Assembly (NCBI GenBank): GCA_017614375.1
Contig: JAGABZ010000013.1
Coordinates: forward strand, 76,414-140,413
Length of the DNA stretch: 64,000 bases
Direction: 5' to 3'
Source: Spirochaetales bacterium
Lineage (GTDB): Bacteria; Spirochaetota; Spirochaetia; Sphaerochaetales; Sphaerochaetaceae
Position 1 is the first letter of the stretch. Each line of letters begins with the position of its first letter. The notes below the pieces were generated by a model. The model searched no databases. It saw only the letters and a program-made list of their open reading frames with translations, and was not told where the DNA came from. The position numbers were made by a program, and so were the translations under genes. Positions 1 to 56,098 of this stretch are shown here, in pieces.

Positions 1-313
1 GCGAAAGACTGACAAACGGCCCTGTCCCGTACGGGTGGTACACCAGAAGCAGCCCGCTTTCGGCAAAGACTTCCTTTCCCGCCACACAGGCCGTCTGCAC
101 CAGCCGCAGACTCAGCTCCCGGTCCAGCCTGAGTTCGGCCCCCAGGCAGAACTGGGTACTCCGGCCGAAAACCAGATCTGCCGCAAATGCACTATCGAAG
201 TCCAGTGAAAACCTGTCGTCCCCGCGGCCGAAAATCCCTGCGGAGACCGGCCACACGGCCGCGAGGAACAACAGGAAGGTGATAAGGAGCGACCTCAGTC
301 TATGACCCGGCAT
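1..313 (-). CDS. exported protein, cut by window edge
   Basis: The N-terminal 104 codons are visible; the gene runs off the left edge. The start is an ATG at 313 preceded by GGAAGG at a normal distance. The product opens with MPGHR, then a hydrophobic stretch and an Ala-x-Ala type cleavage site (WPVSA), so it is predicted to be exported by a Sec signal peptide. The mature part alternates polar and hydrophobic residues, as in a beta-barrel or beta-sandwich, but too little is present to name a family. It overlaps the end of the upstream lipoprotein gene by 19 bp, so the two are probably co-transcribed and translationally coupled. Confidence 0.6.
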   Translation of the reverse strand, partial: MPGHRLRSLLITFLLFLAAVWPVSAGIFGRGDDRFSLDFDSAFAADLVFGRSTQFCLGAELRLDRELSLRLVQTACVAGKEVFAESGLLLVYHPYGTGPFVSLS

Positions 314-2406
314 AGGGCGAGCCTTCCGTCAGCCCGGCAGACGAGCATGTACGAGCCGGAAAGAGCGAACATCGACAGACCCGGGGTGCTTTCCTGGAAT
401 ACGATGCAGTTTTCAAGCATCGTCAGCACGTTACCGTTGCTTCTGGACAGGCAGTAGACCACCCTCTGCTCCGAGTCCATCGCGTAGAGATAGGTCGACT
501 GGCTGTTGTAGAGCAGCTGGTCTGCCGTCAGCTGCACGGTCTGCGGAGTAACGTATGCCGTCTGGTTGATCCCGATGGCCCCGATGCTGAAGACGAAGTT
601 CTCCAGACTGCCGTTGGAGACGGTCAGACAACCGTCCGAACCCAGGGCGACAGCTGCCGGGACACTGGTGGTGCTGCCGATTTTTCTGAAGCTCTGCACC
701 GCTCCGGTCTGGGACCTCTGGGCCAGGTAGATCTCGGTCTTGTCCGCGGCGGTGAGGGCAACCACTCCTCCGGAGGGCGAGATGGCCATCCTGCAGTCGG
801 CGGTGAAGTCCTCGGGGATGGTGCTGAAACCGCCCAGGACCGGGGAGCCGGTGGACATGCGGAACCACAGGATTCTGTGACTGACCGTGGTACCGTTGAG
901 CACGGTCCGGTTGGCCAGCACATAGGCCATGTTGTCCGACGGGGAGAAATCCAGGGCGCGGACCTCGGAGATCTGGGCCGAGACGCTCGAGCCTGGGATG
1001 GTGAAAGTCCCGGTAATCCTGGCCAGGTCGCCGGTACACATGGCGATGGTTCCGGTATCCTGGTCATAGCGCATGAACGTGACGTTCTCGGTACCGCCGT
1101 AGTTGTCCAGAGTGATTATCCACGGCAAAACCGGGTGGCTCTTTACCATCGTGATGCTGCTGATGAACGGGAAATCATCGGTGCTGTACACGCTGACCAG
1201 ATCCAGATAGTTCCGGGTAACCTTCATTACGGCGATCTTTCCCGCGGACGGACTGACCACGAGGAACCGTCCTCCGGGTAGGGCCGAGACCATCGTGTCG
1301 GACCCCAGCTCGAGATAGGTGCAGGAACTGCCCGTCTTTCCTATCTGGATTGTCGAGAACTCGCTGATCTTGCAGATCGTGCCGCTCTGGCCACCGGATA
1401 TGGCCAGAAACGAGGCCGACACGCAGCCCAGGCTGCCCTGAAGCGAATTGCTCACCACCGCGTCGATCCGGTGGCTGCCGGCTGTGACATTGACCGTCTT
1501 CGTATTGGTCTTTTCCAGAGTCGCAGCCGCACCGCAGGCCTGGCCGTCGATGAACCACTGGATCTTCAGACCGGGCGAGGCCTCGAACTCGTCATCCAGG
1601 GTAAAGGTGACCTGGTTGTCGGTGTTGGCCTGAAGCTGGCAGGTGTCGTCGGAAAACGTGAACCCCGTGAGGGTCCCCCTTACAGGTACGCTCGAGCGGT
1701 TGTTCAGCAGGAAGTAGCCGGACGCGTCGGCGTACTGCATCTGCATTATGCTCAGGTTTCCGGTGGTGGTCTGGCCGCCGACTATCCGGATTGATTCGAC
1801 GAACCCTCCCACGTGGAAATCTCCCGACATCAGCACCCCGCGGACGACGTACGAACCGGCGGCCAGCTCGGTGCTCAGGGTGACCCTGCGGTTTGCGTAG
1901 TCCGGGCTGATCTCCAGCTGGCTCTCCTCGCCGCCCTGGGAACGGATATAAAGCCTGATGTTTGGATCGGGCACCTCGGTGTTTTCCCAATCCACCGTCA
2001 GGTTCAGCGTACCCGTACCGACCATCTGGTCCAGGGTAATCTGGACGGTTCCTGAATTCTGGCTCAGCTCGCAATCGGCCGAGCCCCGGATCAGCGCCAC
2101 ACCCTGTGCGTTCAGACCGGTGGCGGTCACATGCCATGAACCCACCTCCAATCCGTTGATCGTCACCGAGGCGCTGTCGGTGGACACTTCGAACACGGCA
2201 TTGTTCGGCCCGCTTCCGTTTACGCGGTAACGCGTGATCTGAAGCGACGCGGTGTCCTGGGGCACCAGGGTCTTTACTCCGAGCTCGGTCTTTCTGAGTA
2301 GCAGCTTCATGGCGGCAGTACCGCTTTCGTCGCTGCATGAGACTCCCAGCAGGAGCACGAATACGCAGAGCAGTGCAACGGCTCTTTCAAACAGATGTCT
2401 TTTCAT
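295..2406 (-). CDS. large lipoprotein of unknown function (703 aa)
   Basis: The chosen start is the ATG at 2406, eight bases after a GGAGG; a longer reading frame extends upstream but has no ribosome site and would bury the signal peptide. Residues 1-22 form a lipoprotein signal with lipobox LGVSC, so the protein should be lipidated and membrane-anchored. The rest has no TM helix and is rich in Ser, Thr, Gly and Val, with repeated beta-strand-like segments. The first half resembles stacked Ig-like modules and the second half may be a beta-propeller (GGRFLVVSP, then regular WF/VL strands); this is a guess from composition. It precedes the truncated exported gene in an apparent two-gene operon. 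A repeated leader element carries its Shine-Dalgarno site. Confidence 0.75.
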   Translation of the reverse strand: MKRHLFERAVALLCVFVLLLGVSCSDESGTAAMKLLLRKTELGVKTLVPQDTASLQITRYRVNGSGPNNAVFEVSTDSASVTINGLEVGSWHVTATGLNAQGVALIRGSADCELSQNSGTVQITLDQMVGTGTLNLTVDWENTEVPDPNIRLYIRSQGGEESQLEISPDYANRRVTLSTELAAGSYVVRGVLMSGDFHVGGFVESIRIVGGQTTTGNLSIMQMQYADASGYFLLNNRSSVPVRGTLTGFTFSDDTCQLQANTDNQVTFTLDDEFEASPGLKIQWFIDGQACGAAATLEKTNTKTVNVTAGSHRIDAVVSNSLQGSLGCVSASFLAISGGQSGTICKISEFSTIQIGKTGSSCTYLELGSDTMVSALPGGRFLVVSPSAGKIAVMKVTRNYLDLVSVYSTDDFPFISSITMVKSHPVLPWIITLDNYGGTENVTFMRYDQDTGTIAMCTGDLARITGTFTIPGSSVSAQISEVRALDFSPSDNMAYVLANRTVLNGTTVSHRILWFRMSTGSPVLGGFSTIPEDFTADCRMAISPSGGVVALTAADKTEIYLAQRSQTGAVQSFRKIGSTTSVPAAVALGSDGCLTVSNGSLENFVFSIGAIGINQTAYVTPQTVQLTADQLLYNSQSTYLYAMDSEQRVVYCLSRSNGNVLTMLENCIVFQESTPGLSMFALSGSYMLVCRADGRLALCRVID

Positions 2407-3968: not shown

Positions 3969-4110
3969 GTATCCGAAAACATCATCTCAAGGGCATTTTT
4001 CGGATACAAGCGTATCCGAAAACCTCGTTTCAAGCGCTTTTCTCGGATACAAGCGTATCCGAAAACCTCGTTTCGGCGCCTTTTTTCGGATACATGAGGT
4101 ATCCGAAGCA
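3969..4110 (+). repeat. tandem 43-bp hairpin repeats, word GTATCCGAAAA
   Basis: GTATCCGA begins at 3969, 4012, 4055 and 4099, a 43-44 bp period. Each of the first three units closes with TTCGGATAC or CTCGGATAC, so each unit is an inverted repeat with about 18 bases between the arms. The fourth unit is truncated. The array fills the gap between the convergent cysE and hydA genes. Confidence 0.8.
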
Positions 4111-9250: not shown

Positions 9251-9279
9251 ATCGTATCACAAAAGACTTTACAACTCAA
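9251..9279 (-). promoter_or_regulatory. promoter of the hydrogenase operon
   Basis: On the minus strand TTGAGT (9279-9274) and TACGAT (9256-9251) are separated by 17 bp. The -35 box overlaps the last codons of the endonuclease-like gene. A short dyad, GTGAGATTTCAC, lies just downstream in the leader. Confidence 0.5.
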
Positions 9280-10318
9280 CAAAAGATGTCAGTCTGACCC
9301 ACACCGGAAGGTGGTCCGAAAGCCCGCTTCTGAGCCTCGGAACATAGGCCACGGGCAAGCCCTGACCGTCCGTCAGCCCGGAGCCGGTGTACACACCGCC
9401 TCCGTCATACTCCGGCCCCTGCCTGTCAAAGGCTTCCCCGCCGCAGAGAATCCTGTCGAAACAGTACCACTCCCCTCTGTAGACATACGAACCCGGAGCC
9501 TCCTTCTGCGTCCCTTCATCCTCCCAGAACGAGTACCAGCACCCCGCCGCCGGTGGCCCGCCGGTAACAACCAGCGAGCCTGCGCACCCGGCCAGGACAG
9601 CATCATCCCAGCCGGCGTACGCCAGCGCGGGGCACAGCCCGGGGGCCTTCTGCAGCAGAGCCGCCGAACAGTTGATGTCCGTGTTGAAATCCCCGGCCAG
9701 CAGCACAACCGCCCCGGGGTAGAGAGCCGAAGCCTCGGCGGCGGCGCAAATCAGCGCTGCGGACGTCGCCAACCGGTCCGGCTCGGTTTCCTCCGGACCG
9801 TCGCTGCGGCTCTTGGCGTGAAAGCCCAGAACAACAACGTCAGCCCCGCCGAAAACCAGACGGATCCGCAGAACCGGCCTCTGGCCCTCCACCCCGATTA
9901 CCGCCACATCATCCCGTTCCACCGGGACGCGGGCTATGAAGCCGGTCTGGATTGCCCGGCCGGCACCGGCGGTTGTGCCGTACCAGAGATAGCCTTTTGA
10001 CGCAAGCAGAGAGCAGAGGTCATAAAGCACCCTGTCGTTCTCAACCTCCTGCAGGACCAGCAGATCCGGACGGGGATCGAGGGCGGTGATTGCCGACGCC
10101 AGATTCCTCACCCGGTTCCGATAGGCTGAGTGATCCCAGAGGGCGGAGTTCTGAAAGTCGGAGTATTCGGTTCCTTCGGTGAGGTCGTCGAACATGCATT
10201 GGACGTTCCAGCTGGCCACCACCAGAGCTGACCTCGCCGGCTCGGCCGGGCCGCAGGAGCAGCTGAGAAGACAGAGCGCGCAGATACAGAGCAAAAAGAT
10301 GCAGGATTTCCCGTTCAA
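9269..10318 (-). CDS. lipoprotein endonuclease/exonuclease/phosphatase family protein
   Basis: A 349-aa member of the DNase I/EEP fold. Motifs: ASWNVQ (metal-binding Asn), LLVLQEVEND (catalytic Glu), GFHAKS (His), LAGDFNTDI (Asp/Asn) and LSDHLPVW (terminal His). The signal peptide ends in a lipobox (LCLLSCSCG), so it should act outside the cytoplasm, on DNA, sugar phosphates or phospholipids; the substrate is not readable. The start is TTG at 10318, chosen because GGAGG stands six bases before it and no ATG fits. The ribosome site belongs to leader repeat copy B. Confidence 0.85.
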   Translation of the reverse strand: MNGKSCIFLLCICALCLLSCSCGPAEPARSALVVASWNVQCMFDDLTEGTEYSDFQNSALWDHSAYRNRVRNLASAITALDPRPDLLVLQEVENDRVLYDLCSLLASKGYLWYGTTAGAGRAIQTGFIARVPVERDDVAVIGVEGQRPVLRIRLVFGGADVVVLGFHAKSRSDGPEETEPDRLATSAALICAAAEASALYPGAVVLLAGDFNTDINCSAALLQKAPGLCPALAYAGWDDAVLAGCAGSLVVTGGPPAAGCWYSFWEDEGTQKEAPGSYVYRGEWYCFDRILCGGEAFDRQGPEYDGGGVYTGSGLTDGQGLPVAYVPRLRSGLSDHLPVWVRLTSFVEL

Positions 10319-10323
10319 GGTTA

Positions 10324-10370
10324 ACCTCCGCCCCTATATCCGCGCCGGAAGGCGTTTCGCTGAGAAAAAG
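10324..10370 (-). repeat. leader repeat, copy B
   Basis: On the minus strand: TTTTTCTCAGCGAAACGCC, then a short CGCC/GGCG hairpin, GCGGATATAG and GGGGCGGAGG. As in copy A the element ends in the ribosome-binding site of a lipoprotein gene, here with a TTG start. Confidence 0.65.
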
Positions 10371-20567: not shown

Positions 20568-22421
20568 TCAGCAGCAAAGCATGTTCTTGAGGTATTCTCT
20601 CAAAGGGGCGTCTACGCAGTAGATGTAACACCCCTTGAGGCCTCTGGAAAGAAGGACTTTGTATGTTCTGCGGATGAGTTGATCTGCTTCTTCGTCACTT
20701 GTTGTTCTTCTTCCGATACCGCTGGATTTGTCGTCCTTTGAAACAGCATTCCTGTCGGTCCGGACATGACCGTCCTTGTAGTACAGATCCCTGCCGATAA
20801 TCACCCCGACATAGTCGAATTCCATCCCCTGACAGGTGTGAATACAGCCGACTTCCTCAAAAGAAGCAGGATTCACTGCCCAGTGGTCATCCTTCTCGAG
20901 ATTCCACTTTGCCCTGAAGCCGCCGGGAAGCTCAATATCCCAATCTCCACGTTTGTTTTTCACATTCCAGTCAAAGCAATAGCCTGAAATCATTCTGGCT
21001 TTGTTGTTAATTCCGTTGAGTTCCCTCAATTCATCCCGCATGGCTACAGGGTCGTCAAACACCTTGACCTTCAGTTTGTTGAACTCAAAGGAAGTGTTGG
21101 CAGTGCGTTTAAGCTCCAGAAGATTGTTGAGAAACGAAATGTAGCCGTCACTACCGTCGCATCTGAACTGAGACACCAATTCATAAGGCCTGTGCAGAAC
21201 CGCGCCTTCCCTTCTGGCGTACTCTTCTATGGTCTTTACCGAGTATTTGTCGAATACCGTAATCCGCTGGTCTTCATCAACAAAGAAGACCGATATCCTG
21301 GCCGCCTTGATTGCGTCTTCGAGCATGTCGTTTCCGGGATACATGTAGGGTTTCTTCTGCATCCTGTGGGCTTCATCATAGATTCCGACGTCAAGTCCGT
21401 TGACAGGGGTTCCCGGAAGGGCAAACGGTGACTGAATTGCCTTCTGGAGGTTGACCATCTTACGTGCATTGCCCTTGGAAAGGAGAACCGAATAACACTT
21501 TCTGGGAGCCATGTTCTTTGTGATGTATGAAGCATTCAACTTAAGATCTGAAATACATTTGGCAAGAACATTGATTGCAACGACGGATTTCCCGGTACCC
21601 GGGCCGCCGGTAATGATGATGACATGCTTCCGGCCGTCCTTTTCGGAGTCCTTGATTGCCTTCATGATTTTGTCATAGGCGACAATCTGTTCATCAATCA
21701 GATGAAACTCCTCATTTCCGCAGAGCATTGAATCCAACGCGTCCTGAAGCGACTTCGTCGGCTTGAGTCGGCCTTCCTCAATCCTGTACAGCAGCGAATC
21801 GTCCTCTGCCTTGAGATGGATATACTGCTTGATGAAATTTCGGATTTTCAGGACATCTTTCTGAAGGAATGCCGGAGCTTCCGCTGTCCATTCACTGTAG
21901 AGATTGTCCTCTATCACCGGACGGTACACCTCTCCGAGGTTGTGAAGATAGGTGCAGGGAATCAGCGTGCGGGAATTGACATGAATATCATCGCAATAGT
22001 CCAGAATCAGGCATTTGTATGAGTAGGCCTGATACGAGGGATGCGCAACCGGCTCATGCGACCTGAGATCGGACATAACCAGATGGCTGCAGTTCTCATC
22101 GACTTTCTCCACCTTGGCCCACTGTTTGAGTTCGACTATGACAACGTGATCCTCTTCCCCGCTATTCCCCATAATCATGAAATCAACTCGTTTGCTCGTC
22201 TGGGGAATGTTGTATTCAATTGCAACCTGACAATCCGGGGAGAAGTAATCGTCCTTCAGCGCATCCTTCATAAACCGAAGGGAGTTATTCCAAGAATTGA
22301 CCTCGCTGGGAGACCCACCGCTCAGACCCTTTTCCCTGAGTTTGCCCAAAAGAATATCCGGCATCTCATTCAGTTCGACATTCTCCCTGAACCTGCCGAG
22401 GCTGTCGTTATAGATGATCAA
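20568..22421 (-). CDS. PD-(D/E)XK nuclease-DUF2075 helicase fusion (617 aa)
   Basis: The N-terminal domain (about 1-190) has a PD-(D/E)XK nuclease pattern: E69 in VAIEY, D80 in RVDFMI and E97-L-K99 in VVIVELKQW. Residues about 240-615 form a superfamily 1-like DUF2075 helicase (Schlafen group-3 related): Walker A GGPGTGKS at 272-279, Walker B IYDEAHR near 347-353, FFVDEDQR, THCQG-like motif V (HTCQGMEFDYVGV) and the C-terminal SRGLKGCYIY. Such proteins are often found near defence genes; that role is inference here. The start is TTG at 22421 after AAGGG. The gene is visibly AT-richer than its neighbours, suggesting transfer. A TATAAT stands 20 bases upstream. Confidence 0.85.
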   Translation of the reverse strand: MIIYNDSLGRFRENVELNEMPDILLGKLREKGLSGGSPSEVNSWNNSLRFMKDALKDDYFSPDCQVAIEYNIPQTSKRVDFMIMGNSGEEDHVVIVELKQWAKVEKVDENCSHLVMSDLRSHEPVAHPSYQAYSYKCLILDYCDDIHVNSRTLIPCTYLHNLGEVYRPVIEDNLYSEWTAEAPAFLQKDVLKIRNFIKQYIHLKAEDDSLLYRIEEGRLKPTKSLQDALDSMLCGNEEFHLIDEQIVAYDKIMKAIKDSEKDGRKHVIIITGGPGTGKSVVAINVLAKCISDLKLNASYITKNMAPRKCYSVLLSKGNARKMVNLQKAIQSPFALPGTPVNGLDVGIYDEAHRMQKKPYMYPGNDMLEDAIKAARISVFFVDEDQRITVFDKYSVKTIEEYARREGAVLHRPYELVSQFRCDGSDGYISFLNNLLELKRTANTSFEFNKLKVKVFDDPVAMRDELRELNGINNKARMISGYCFDWNVKNKRGDWDIELPGGFRAKWNLEKDDHWAVNPASFEEVGCIHTCQGMEFDYVGVIIGRDLYYKDGHVRTDRNAVSKDDKSSGIGRRTTSDEEADQLIRRTYKVLLSRGLKGCYIYCVDAPLREYLKNMLCC

Positions 22422-22479: not shown

Positions 22480-22675
22480 TCGGCTCCGCCGCCCGGTATC
22501 TGCGTCAGAAGGCTTTTCGCCGGGAGAATTCAGAAGAATGTGCAGTTTTTTTCAAAACCTGCAAATTGATGCTATTTGGATAGCATCATTTTTCGGAAAT
22601 GAGGGAAAAGATGTCAAAAAAATAGCATCGATTTTGAGTTTTGCGATAAATGATGCTATAAACCCAGCCCGGAGC
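22480..22675 (-). repeat. repeat block D: degraded leader plus GATGCTAT array
   Basis: Related to the block at 40226-40406 but on the opposite strand. GATGCTAT or its complement lies at 22568, 22580, 22622 and 22652; successive same-orientation copies are 42 bp apart (22580 to 22622). The conserved AAAAAAACTGCACATTCT follows on the minus strand, then a decayed leader repeat in which the terminal GGCGGAG is not next to a start codon. Confidence 0.75.
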
Positions 22676-22684
22676 AGGAGCAGG

Positions 22685-22726
22685 TCAGCAGGTGGTGAAG
22701 CAACAGAGGGTGGTGCCTTCGAAAAC
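22685..22726 (-). pseudogene. galM 3'-end remnant
   Basis: On the minus strand 39 bases (22723-22685) match the last 39 bases of the galM gene (40166-40204) at 34 positions, including the TGA stop, and encode FEGTTLCCFTTC against FESTTLYRFTTC. Upstream of this the similarity fades. The remnant sits in front of array D just as galM sits in front of array C. The rest of the gap to 22801 shows no feature. Confidence 0.7.
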
Positions 22727-22801: not shown

Positions 22802-24358
22802 TCAGGCCCGGGGCATGGACCGGCCAAGGTACTCAGCGACGGCCAGGGCGCAGTTCATGCCGTCGAGGGCAGCGGAGACTATGCCTCCGGCGTAGCCGGC
22901 GCCCTCGGCGCAGGGGAACAGGCCCGGGCGGGACATCAGGCTTCGGGCATCGCGGACTATGCGGACCGGGCTGCTGGTCAGGGTTTCGGAGGCGATCATC
23001 AGAGCGTCGTTCGTAAGGAAGCCGGGGGCCTTGGATCCAAAGTTCCAAAAGCCCTCGCGCAGGCGGCAGGCTATGCCCTCGGGCAGCAGGCGGTTGAGAT
23101 CGGCCGGAACGACGCCGTTCATGTATGAGGTGCGGATCAATGTCCTGTTGGGCTGTTTGTTGACAAAATCGGCCATGAGCTGGCCGGGAGCGGACATCGA
23201 ACCGGAGGAGAAGTCGAAGGTGCGCTTCTGCAGGGTCCGGACGAAGTCCAGCATTCCGAACACCCCGGAGAATCGGGCCGGGAGGTCTTCGGGGCGGATT
23301 TCGACGACCATGGCGGAGTTGGAGAACCTGCCGCTGCGGGCGCTGGCGCTCATGCCGTTGACGTTGACAGTGCCCGTTTCTGTCATGGCGGGGACGACAA
23401 CTCCGCCGGGGCACATGCAGAACGAGTATACGCCCCTGCCGCGGACCTGGGTGACAAAGCTGTATTCAGCCGGCGGCAGGAACTGCGGGCGGCCGTTGTA
23501 CTGGATGCTGTCGATAAGCTCACGCGGGTGTTCGAGGCGGACGCCGACGGCTATGCCTTTGCTCTGGAGCTGAACACCCTGGGCATCGAGGAAATGATAG
23601 ACATCAAAGGCGCTGTGCCCGGTGGCCAGGATTACCGGTCCGCGCAGTTGTTCGCCGGATTCGGTCGCAACGCCGGAGACGGTCAGGACTTGCCCGGAAA
23701 GGAGGGAAGTGACCTTGGTGTTGAACCGGACGATTCCGCCGCAGGAGGTGATCAGGGAGCGGATCGAGCGAACGATCGAGGGGAGTTTTTCCGAGCCGAG
23801 GTGGGGATGGGCTTCGTAGAGGATGCCCGCGTCGGCGCCGCTTCGGACAAAGGTGTTGAGGACCTTGGGCAGGTCGCCGCGCTTGGTGCTGCGGGTGTAG
23901 AGCTTGCCGTCCGAGTAGGTGCCCGCCCCGCCCTCGCCGAAGCAGTAGTTGTTCACCGGGTCGACGATGCCGCTGCGGTGCATGGCTGTGATGGCGGTGC
24001 GGCGCTCTTCGACCGGGCCGCCGCGTTCGAGGACTACGGGTTTCAGGCCGAGTTCGATAAGCTGCAGAGCGGCGAAAAGCCCTGCCGGGCCGCTTCCGAC
24101 GACGATGACTTCAGGCGCACCGGAGACGTCGCCCAGGGTAAACCGGCTCTGCGGTGGCAGGCTCTCGCCCGGCGCGTAGAGTCTGACTTTGAAGCAGATT
24201 CTGGTCTCTCTGCGCCGGGAGTCGATGCTTTTCTTTTCGATTGTGAGCCGGTCGACGGCACCCGGTCCGAGGCCTGTGCTTCTGAGCGCGGCGGCCAGCA
24301 GACTCTGATAGTCGTCACTCTGGCCGGGGCGGAGGATTACCTCGGTTGTGATGCTCAT
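22802..24358 (-). CDS. FAD-dependent oxidoreductase, COG2509-like (518 aa)
   Basis: A cytosolic flavoprotein of the uncharacterised FAD-dependent dehydrogenase group. After about 90 residues of an N-terminal domain comes the dinucleotide-binding motif VVGSGPAGLFAALQL. Later blocks typical of the group are CFGEGGAGTYSDGKLYTR, LATGHSAFDVYHFL and the C-terminal CAEGAGYAGGIVSAALDG. The physiological substrate is unknown. It overlaps proB by four bases (ATGA), so it is the third gene of the proA-proB operon, although no role in proline synthesis is established for the family. Confidence 0.88.
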   Translation of the reverse strand: MSITTEVILRPGQSDDYQSLLAAALRSTGLGPGAVDRLTIEKKSIDSRRRETRICFKVRLYAPGESLPPQSRFTLGDVSGAPEVIVVGSGPAGLFAALQLIELGLKPVVLERGGPVEERRTAITAMHRSGIVDPVNNYCFGEGGAGTYSDGKLYTRSTKRGDLPKVLNTFVRSGADAGILYEAHPHLGSEKLPSIVRSIRSLITSCGGIVRFNTKVTSLLSGQVLTVSGVATESGEQLRGPVILATGHSAFDVYHFLDAQGVQLQSKGIAVGVRLEHPRELIDSIQYNGRPQFLPPAEYSFVTQVRGRGVYSFCMCPGGVVVPAMTETGTVNVNGMSASARSGRFSNSAMVVEIRPEDLPARFSGVFGMLDFVRTLQKRTFDFSSGSMSAPGQLMADFVNKQPNRTLIRTSYMNGVVPADLNRLLPEGIACRLREGFWNFGSKAPGFLTNDALMIASETLTSSPVRIVRDARSLMSRPGLFPCAEGAGYAGGIVSAALDGMNCALAVAEYLGRSMPRA

Positions 24359-39118: not shown

Positions 39119-39232
39119 ATCTGCCCCCTGTTGAGAGGATTCTACCACACCGCCCCGGCCCGCACAAAATGAATCGGCCAGGCCTTGACCTGCAACACTA
39201 AAGCACCGATAGTAAACTCCAGCGGAGACAAC

Positions 39233-40204
39233 ATGGAAATCAGACAATACACCTTCACCAGCGGGCTTTACTCGTTCTCGATCCTCAACCTCGGATGCGC
39301 CGTGACCGCAATCCGCACCCCGGACCGCTGCGGCCGGATCGCCAACGTCACCCTGCCTTTCATCGGCACCGAAGCCGACGTCATCCTCCGCTCCGCCAGC
39401 TTCTTCGGCATGACCATCGGACGCTTTGCCAACCGCATCGCCGGCGCCTCGTTTCCGCTTTCGGGCAAGGCCTGGTCGTTCGCCCCAAACGATGGCCCGA
39501 ACCTCCTCCACAGCGGCAAAAACGGTATCTGGTCAAAAATCTGGGACATCAAGCCCACCCCTGACGGCTTCCTCTGCACCCTCTCCGCCACCCAGGCCGA
39601 GGACGGCTTTCCCGGCGATGCGGAAATCACCGTCCGCTTCTCCCTCTCCGCCGGCGGGGATTTTACCATCCGCTACAGTGCCACCTGCACCGCGCCGTGC
39701 CCGTTCAACCTGACCAACCACACCTACTTCAACCTCACCGGCGACCCGGCGCGGGACATCCTCTCCCACACCGCCCGGATCAACAGCAGCAGCATTGTCG
39801 AGGCCGGAGCCGGCCTGATCCCCACCGGCCGCATCCTCCCCGTGCAGGGCACCGCCTGGGACTTCACCGCCGAGAAACCAATCGGCCGGGACATAGACTC
39901 CCCCGCCCTTGCCCCCGCCGGCGGCTATGACCACGCCTTTGTCCTCAGCCCGGGCGGGCCGTTTGTACGCATCACCGAGCCGCAGTCGGGGCGCGTCCTC
40001 GAGGGCTTCACCGACATGCCGGCGGTCCACTTCTACACCGGCAACTACCTCGACGGCGAATTCGGCTATCACCGCCGGCACGGCTTCTGCCTCGAAACCG
40101 AGTTCTACCCCGACTGCGTCAACCGCCCTGAATTCCCCTCCTGCATAGTCCGCCCGGGCGAGACCTTCGAAAGCACCACACTCTACCGCTTCACCACCTG
40201 CTGA
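39233..40204 (+). CDS. galM: aldose 1-epimerase (galactose mutarotase)
   Basis: Interconverts alpha and beta anomers of aldoses. The fold is a beta-sandwich; GRFANRIAGASFPL carries the Asn/Arg block, SGKNGIW the first catalytic-site loop, NHTYFNLTG the substrate His and EFYPDCVNRPEF the catalytic Glu region. 323 aa from the ATG at 39233, which follows GGAGA. It stands near, but not in, the glycan locus. Its last 39 coding bases recur as a remnant at 22685-22723. Confidence 0.92.
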   Translation: MEIRQYTFTSGLYSFSILNLGCAVTAIRTPDRCGRIANVTLPFIGTEADVILRSASFFGMTIGRFANRIAGASFPLSGKAWSFAPNDGPNLLHSGKNGIWSKIWDIKPTPDGFLCTLSATQAEDGFPGDAEITVRFSLSAGGDFTIRYSATCTAPCPFNLTNHTYFNLTGDPARDILSHTARINSSSIVEAGAGLIPTGRILPVQGTAWDFTAEKPIGRDIDSPALAPAGGYDHAFVLSPGGPFVRITEPQSGRVLEGFTDMPAVHFYTGNYLDGEFGYHRRHGFCLETEFYPDCVNRPEFPSCIVRPGETFESTTLYRFTTC

Positions 40205-40225
40205 TTCTGTTTTCATACGTGCCCA

Positions 40226-40406
40226 ATAGCATCTTTTTGCGCCAAATGCAGAATTGATGCTATTTTTGTGTCATCTTTTTTCGCATTTCGAAGAAAAGAT
40301 GCTATCGAAATAGCATCAATTTGCAAGTTTTGAAAAAAACTGCACATTCTCCTGTTTTTCTTCTCAGCGAAACGCCTCTTGGCATGGATAGTAGCGGCGG
40401 AGGAAA
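40226..40406 (+). repeat. repeat block C: GATGCTAT array plus leader repeat
   Basis: ATAGCATC at 40226 and 40310, GATGCTAT at 40256 and 40298; the two GATGCTAT copies are 42 bp apart and 40298-40317 is a tight hairpin. The block continues with AAAAAAACTGCACATTCT and then leader copy C (40356-40406: TTCTCAGCGAAACGCC through GGCGGAGG), whose last bases are the ribosome site of the gene at 40411. It starts 21 bases after the galM stop codon. Confidence 0.8.
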
Positions 40407-40410
40407 AACT

Positions 40411-41184
40411 ATGTACGAGGAAACTATCAAGGCACTTCAGCGAAGGCTGGCGAAGGTTTCTGAGGTGCTTTCGAGACCGGTTCCGGATACTGAAGGCAGG
40501 CTCCTCTGTCGGTTGAGCCGTAATCCTGTGATGTATTACAGGAAGACAGCAGCCGGAATCGAATATCTGGGCCGGGGAAAGGAAAACGAGATCCGGCTGC
40601 TGGCCCAGAAGCGGTACGAGCAACGGCTGCACACGCTGGCGCTAAAGGAGAAGCGGGCCCTGGAAACGGCAATAGCGCTTTTGGGCAAGGCCAGACCGTT
40701 TGAGTCGGTCGGGGCCGAAATGTCCGAAGGAATCATGCGCTTTGTTATCCCGCACGGCGGTACGGATGAGGATTTCGTGAAAAGCTGGCTGGGTGTCAGG
40801 TACAACCGCAAGCCTGTCGGCAGAGAGGCTGTTGTCACGGCGAGGGGTGAAAGCGTGCGGTCAAAGAGCGAGGCGATCATTGCCGACAGGCTGCTGAGGG
40901 CCGGGGTTCCGTACCGCTATGAGTTTCCGGTGAATCTGGGAAAGGACGGGCTGTACCACCCGGACTTCATGGTGCTGAACAGGCGGACCCGGCAGGAATT
41001 CTTCTGGGAGCATTTCGGTATGCTGGACAACCCCGGATATGCCTATACGAACATCAGAAAACTGCGGATCTACGCCGCTCACGGCCTGTATCCAGGGGTG
41101 AACCTCATCCTGACCGCCGAGGCCGAGGGCCAGGTGCTGGACACACAGGAAGTCGAGGCGCTGATCAGACAGTACCTGCTGTAG
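40411..41184 (+). CDS. predicted PD-(D/E)XK-like nuclease (257 aa)
   Basis: The first 100 residues are charged and helical. The C-terminal half has the arrangement of a restriction-type nuclease: SKSEAIIADRL with E154, then YEFPV with E171, YHPDFMVLN with D185 and FFWEHFGM with E200. This layout (SE, PDF, WEH) recurs in many Firmicutes proteins of unknown role, some linked to mobile DNA. It is not a named restriction family. The ATG at 40411 follows GGAGG by seven bases, and the ribosome site is part of leader repeat C. Confidence 0.75.
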   Translation: MYEETIKALQRRLAKVSEVLSRPVPDTEGRLLCRLSRNPVMYYRKTAAGIEYLGRGKENEIRLLAQKRYEQRLHTLALKEKRALETAIALLGKARPFESVGAEMSEGIMRFVIPHGGTDEDFVKSWLGVRYNRKPVGREAVVTARGESVRSKSEAIIADRLLRAGVPYRYEFPVNLGKDGLYHPDFMVLNRRTRQEFFWEHFGMLDNPGYAYTNIRKLRIYAAHGLYPGVNLILTAEAEGQVLDTQEVEALIRQYLL

Positions 41185-55974: not shown

Positions 55975-56098
55975 TTTTCAGAATAAAACCCGGGAATTTG
56001 CCCTTTTATTCTGAAATTTCCGAATAGAGGCTCCGATTTTTGCGGTTTATTCTGAAAATTCAGAATAAAGCCCCTGATTCCGGCCTTTTATTCTGAAA
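55975..56098. repeat. three 41-bp hairpin repeats, word TTCAGAATAAA
   Basis: Units at 55975-56016, 56017-56057 and 56058-56098. Each is TTTCAGAATAAA or a variant, about 16 GC-rich bases, then TTTATTCTGAAA. The middle unit has a decayed left arm (TTTCCGAATAGA). The array lies between convergent genes, beside two ordinary terminators, so it is not needed for termination. No gene is seen in this 300-bp gap. Confidence 0.8.

Follow-up and report, generated by a model that had tools for sequence, protein, structure and literature searches.

The closest described counterparts of the locus studied here are the REP/RAYT systems, in which dispersed intergenic palindromes, often in tandem clusters, form a separate repeat family beside each single-copy nuclease gene and also occur as solo repeats (PMC3116915, PMC8266576). 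A second point of reference is provided by late competence regulons, for example that of pneumococcal ComX, which comprise dprA, radC, ssbB, recA and comFC (PMC6560143). We analysed a window of 64,000 nucleotides from the 1.54-Mb genome of a Spirochaetales bacterium, in which an array of tandem palindromes precedes the gene of a PD-(D/E)XK nuclease. Our results point, with fair probability, to a partnership of the REPtron kind: every family of tandem palindromes would be cognate to one nuclease that is non-homologous to RAYTs and acts when the cell is competent.

The array belongs to a block that occurs twice in the window, as C and D. As a sequence-only reading of this DNA had claimed, the two align throughout (77% identity over 217 columns, E = 3e-42; DNA alignment and blastn). 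Common to both are a 39-bp galM tail (34 bases identical), a dyad array and an A-tract with CTGCACATTCT after it. All 8 occurrences of GATGCTAT in the window fall within these blocks (0.9 expected), and the AAAAAACTGCACATTCT tail is likewise confined to them within the window. Since galM is full length at C and only its last 39 bp are found at D, behind an unrelated FAD-dependent gene (22802-24358), block D derives from a C-region copy; the same reading was right on this point as well. Its proposed tie between the block and nuclease genes holds at C but not at D, where the helicase gene 3′ of the block has a sigma70-like -35/-10 of its own and adjoins the block only incidentally. In a homolog search of the genome, the PD-(D/E)XK domain of this helicase was not recovered as a relative of the nuclease at C.

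Two further members of the C/D array family, copies E and F, lie at C16:68222 and C16:75406, are 89% identical to each other over 188 bp and adjoin sugar-transport and phosphorylase-like genes. Their common tail is a piece of a separate 17-bp repeat, and its interpretation as a gene end was rejected. With up to 2 mismatches allowed, 26 copies of a motif of 17 bp, GGTCAGGACTTGCCCGG, occur in the 400 kb of contig C13, genic as well as intergenic and on both strands. Inside the window it is found around 14464, 20081, 23681 and 49720 (+) and around 9367 and 33504 (-). In a genome with a competence regulon, this motif is a candidate DNA uptake sequence.

The unit of the C/D array is a 42-bp dyad, ATAGCATC-N22-GATGCTAT-N4, present in about 2.5 copies. 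Arrays A and B in the window have the same build but different arms (Table 1). In the genome we recognized nine or more such families, mostly of 2-3 dyads of ~38-39 bp with a period of 41-43. These genome-wide counts cover one 400-kb contig (C13, 26% of the genome) and about 300 kb of chosen stretches, and the arrays were called by a k-mer criterion; automatic hairpin clustering missed most of them. The 400-kb contig carries about 18 arrays of eight arm families, and the ninth family, GGCCTCGC, came from later scans. On this contig all arrays are intergenic; about half of them separate convergent genes, and divergent gene pairs have none between them. Solo arrays that share their arms with nuclease-linked ones recur in intergenic DNA, D being one of them. 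For the TTGGTGG arm family, no cognate nuclease was found in the genome. At C13:49390-49803, two TTGGTGG arrays ~300 bp apart represent a tandem duplication that includes the flanks.

As single-stranded DNA the arrays are predicted to fold strongly (z -4.8 to -6.4). No covariation of the arms within units was found, and for this reason we do not claim hairpin formation as proven. A search of the window against Rfam gave no match. The C/D array motif was absent from the viral contigs searched; family genomes contained no convincing arrays with it, and sampled stretches of genus mates contained none. We also found no close strain carrying these arrays.

Table 1. Coordinates of features in the window and of the eight nuclease paralogs in the genome (positions without a contig prefix are those of the window)
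Feature	Position	Strand	Basis or remark
703-aa lipoprotein in the box regulon	295..2406	-	box 2427-2454
Array A, arms GTATCCGAAAA, period 43, 3.2 units	3969..4107		arm family of nuclease C5:3420-4193
Exo/endonuclease/phosphatase lipoprotein in the box regulon	9269..10318	-	box 10337-10364
PD-(D/E)XK-SLFN-g3 (DUF2075) helicase, incidental neighbour of D	20568..22421	-	PF09848 E 2e-85
Degenerate competence-type box in D (CCCGGCGAAAAGCC...)	22494..22526	-	PWM 29.6 vs 33-45 for boxes before competence genes/nucleases
Block D, copy of block C, solo array without nuclease	22510..22723	-	DNA alignment, blastn
Array D, arms ATAGCATC/GATGCTAT	22568..22660	-	ssDNA fold z -5.1
galM remnant in D, 39 bp	22685..22723	-	alignment, 34 identical
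galM (aldose 1-epimerase), full length, 3′ end copied into D	39185..40204	+	PF01263 E 6e-74
Block C: galM tail, 2.5-unit 42-bp dyad array, A-tract, start of promoter box	40166..40377	+	DNA alignment, blastn
Array C, arms ATAGCATC/GATGCTAT, cognate array of the nuclease at 40411	40226..40317; degenerate last half-unit to about 40350	+	ssDNA fold z -4.8
Competence-type promoter box CTCAGCGA-N16-GATA	40363..40390	+	exact-pattern count
PD-(D/E)XK nuclease, 257 aa, one of 8 paralogs	40411..41184	+	homolog search, conserved residues, structure model
Array B, arms TTCAGAATAAA, period 41, 3 units, between convergent genes	55977..56098		arm family of nuclease C16:53674-54438
Nuclease, array arms GATGCTAT	C13:116824		= window 40411
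Nuclease, array arms GGCCTCGC	C5:48878		
Nuclease, array arms TATCCGAA	C5:3420		
Nuclease, array arms TTGGGTA	C5:97672		array downstream only
Nuclease, array arms TTCAGAAT	C16:53674		
Nuclease, array arms TGATGAAA	C1:153348		
Nuclease, array arms CGTCGTTTTT	C13:301864		
Nuclease, array arms ATAACTTTTT	C6:1728		

The nuclease encoded after array C has no family match in Pfam, NCBIfam or PHROG. Its C-terminal domain is homologous to the C-terminal nuclease domain of PDC-S68, a candidate phage-defence helicase-nuclease in PADLOC (E 5e-27). Among 63 homologs, E154, D185, F186, E200, H201 and other residues are invariant; E154, D185 and E200-H201 are of catalytic type. In a structure model (pLDDT 95), the domain matches the PD-(D/E)XK enzymes Bax1 (prob 0.99), DrdV and MunI, although whole-chain PDB scores are weak (best E 8e-3). 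Both the fold and the conserved acidic active site are thus those of the PD-(D/E)XK superfamily. At the N terminus the model has a sheet of three strands and then a long helix, perhaps a domain for DNA binding.

In total, eight paralogs of this nuclease are encoded in the genome. Every one of them adjoins an array and the arms are different for each. On the 400-kb contig, 26 of the 304 called genes lie next to an array, which puts the probability of eight in eight by chance at about 3e-9. Three of the nuclease genes sit between direct array copies, with the flanking copies 92, 87 and 81% alike.

What the sequence-only reading took for a leader that formed one block with the array, and for a regulatory RNA of the block's own, is a competence-type promoter box. 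The pattern CTCAGCGA-N16-GATA has 16 exact copies in the genome, as against 0 for a reversed control, and lies 30-60 bp 5′ of start codons. It precedes dprA, recA, ssb (with one mismatch), comM, comF, radC, a DEAD helicase and two lipoprotein genes. Because the same box stands before competence genes that have no arrays, the leader is a promoter, neither a part of the repeat nor an RNA specific to the block. The array with its 42-bp spacing stands, refined to a 42-bp dyad; the leader is a separate element. The box is also found before five of the eight nucleases, with a weak copy before a sixth, so that 2-3 of the 8 have no clear competence box. By this measure, most of the eight nucleases probably belong to the competence regulon.

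A box common to known transformation genes was observed here and, with a separate promoter sequence, in the related genome G148. There, 36 sites (0 in the control) precede, among others, comEC, ssb, radC, 11 of 11 nucleases and two RAYTs with the Y1_Tnp domain (L294 and L296; L281 is similar by motif alone). In G148, RAYT-type and PD-(D/E)XK-type proteins seem to be under common control, and it is possible that RAYTs are linked to competence through the promoter of comEC, ssb and radC. Both lipoproteins of our window (295-2406 and 9269-10318) have apparent counterparts in the G148 regulon (L287, L297). G148 also carries a separate palindromic element of ~180 bp (CATGTGTATAGGCC...GATGCATGC...GGGCTATCCTGCC) beside many nuclease genes and one RAYT; it was seen at L255, L257, L258, L263 and L294, with inverted copies flanking both sides at L255. 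Additionally, toxin-antitoxin-like proteins (Gp49/HigB-like; MazE-like) with a competence box were noted in two genomes, at L100:7883-8305 and L282:1136-1480.

Beyond these cases, the nuclease is present in 22 of 138 genomes of the family, with up to 11 copies in each, and is missing from the two genus mates. Homologs were also found in Treponema, other spirochaetes, Fibrobacter, Lachnospiraceae (Clostridia) and Coriobacteriia, and arrays of this kind also adjoin homologs in Treponema, other spirochaetes and Clostridia. In 400-bp windows beside 120 homologs, an 8-mer dyad array was detected in 27 of 235, compared with 3 of 889 distant and 4 of 4700 shuffled windows; the distant windows are mostly coding and therefore an imperfect comparison, and the shuffles control for composition. 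The periods are mostly 40-42. Of the 120 homolog loci, 25 passed the strict array test, the remainder having one diverged dyad or none. In the multi-copy relative G150, the arms are again distinct for each nuclease paralog. At four loci (C5:97672, L131, L267 and L268), the arrays lie downstream only.

An empty-site comparison was made with a pair of Treponema genomes, XBD1002 and NK4A124. Of Treponema bryantii palindromes with arms TTCCGACAA, XBD1002 has 3 next to the nuclease plus 3 at other places, NK4A124 has 15, and B25 has none. A 4-unit array located between two genes in NK4A124 is missing between the same genes in XBD1002, and another array is kept with five units in both genomes. The orthologous empty site could reflect loss in XBD1002 as well as gain in NK4A124, as the two are indistinguishable in this comparison.

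These distributions bear on the view that the arrays are immobile host elements, either multi-site operators that autoregulate the nuclease genes or bidirectional terminators and mRNA 3′ protectors. The dyad spacing of roughly four helical turns, the location of arrays at the 3′ ends of genes and between convergent ones, and the conservation of arm sequences without covariation would all suit such roles. Nevertheless, many solo arrays are remote from any nuclease gene, some are downstream of the gene or flank it on both sides, each paralog has arms of its own, and an orthologous site lacks one array. We consider this explanation unlikely.

In the nuclease/repeat partnership that we favour, most nuclease copies would be transcribed from the host competence promoter. 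In the competent state, the nuclease would recognise the 38-39-bp dyad by the sequence of its arms and their inverted pairing and cut it, perhaps while the DNA is taken up in single-stranded form. Repair or recombination would then copy the arrays into new intergenic sites and keep the units alike, so the nuclease would mobilise its own array. Such events would have left E, F and, together with its galM tail, block D as solo copies. The strong single-strand folding fits a single-stranded substrate, yet recognition of the arm sequence is at least as likely, because the arms show no covariation within units.

It is also conceivable, though improbable, that the system serves competence-linked defence or kin recognition, with the nuclease screening incoming DNA and the arrays marking self or licensing uptake as cutting sites. 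The competence promoter and the closeness of the nuclease domain to the candidate defence protein PDC-S68 agree with this idea. On the other hand, with only tens of arrays per genome, located between genes, most DNA fragments would go unmarked, and several private families per genome would be unnecessary for screening.

In the type III toxin-antitoxin systems ToxIN and TenpIN, repeats are located directly before the nuclease gene, a layout that resembles the one observed here. With 2-3 repeats of 41-43 bp directly 5′ of a nuclease gene, the tandem repeats might be an RNA antitoxin and the nuclease its toxin. In such systems the array is always upstream and co-transcribed, but we found arrays that are downstream only, two-sided or solo, and the competence promoter, which sits between array and gene, would not transcribe the array. 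Moreover, each unit is a dyad and not a plain direct repeat, the fold is PD-(D/E)XK and not that of ToxN, and Rfam gave no match, all of which makes a toxin-antitoxin system very improbable.

Least credible is the sequence-only proposal that the block is a mobile cassette, or a hotspot of insertion, that carries varied defence genes together with a regulatory RNA of its own: C and D are indeed copies, each 5′ of a nuclease-bearing gene, but copies E and F adjoin sugar-transport and phosphorylase-like genes and carry no defence gene, and the supposed leader has no Rfam match and is a genome-wide competence promoter that also serves competence genes.

REP/REPIN are among the commonest bacterial repeats, and their mode of spread and the retention of their nucleases still call for explanation. 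A non-homologous nuclease family with a one-enzyme-one-repeat pairing constitutes a natural control, in which features common to both systems indicate mechanism. Furthermore, the competence promoter gives a testable timing of repeat movement, namely DNA uptake, a time at which the cell contains single-stranded DNA. The family would also supply many nucleases with matched, distinct target sequences. More tentatively, and with somewhat less than even confidence, we suggest that this is an independently evolved second class of bacterial repeats with dedicated nucleases, in which private palindromes spread at competence, with RAYTs as another competence-linked branch; the emergence of dispersed palindromes in bacteria would then be linked to natural transformation. 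In open-access text, we found no literature on a repeat-associated PD-(D/E)XK family or on its pairing with palindromes.

Compared with late competence regulons of the pneumococcal ComX type, the regulon described here has the same core gene set under one box (PMC6560143), but the box sequence differs and many repeat-associated nucleases are included. In contrast to PDC-S68, the protein is ~260 aa long, has no helicase, is multi-copy, lies beside arrays and is mostly in the competence regulon. As for REP/RAYT, a search for Y1_Tnp (PF01797) gave no match in the genome, with control genomes positive, and a RAYT origin of the arrays was rejected on this ground. No GTAG (or CGTC) tag was seen before the palindrome in arrays read by eye. 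The nuclease is of PD-(D/E)XK type and not HUH/Y1, and the units are long dyads of 38-39 bp with a period of 41-43 bp. Thus, with the Y1 transposase absent, the system is not a member of REP/RAYT, though it would work in a similar way. As in REP/REPIN-RAYT (REPtron, TnpA-REP), the repeats are palindromic, extragenic and dispersed, a different family accompanies each nuclease paralog (8 of 8 in this genome), and in G148 RAYTs use the very promoter of the PD-(D/E)XK nucleases.
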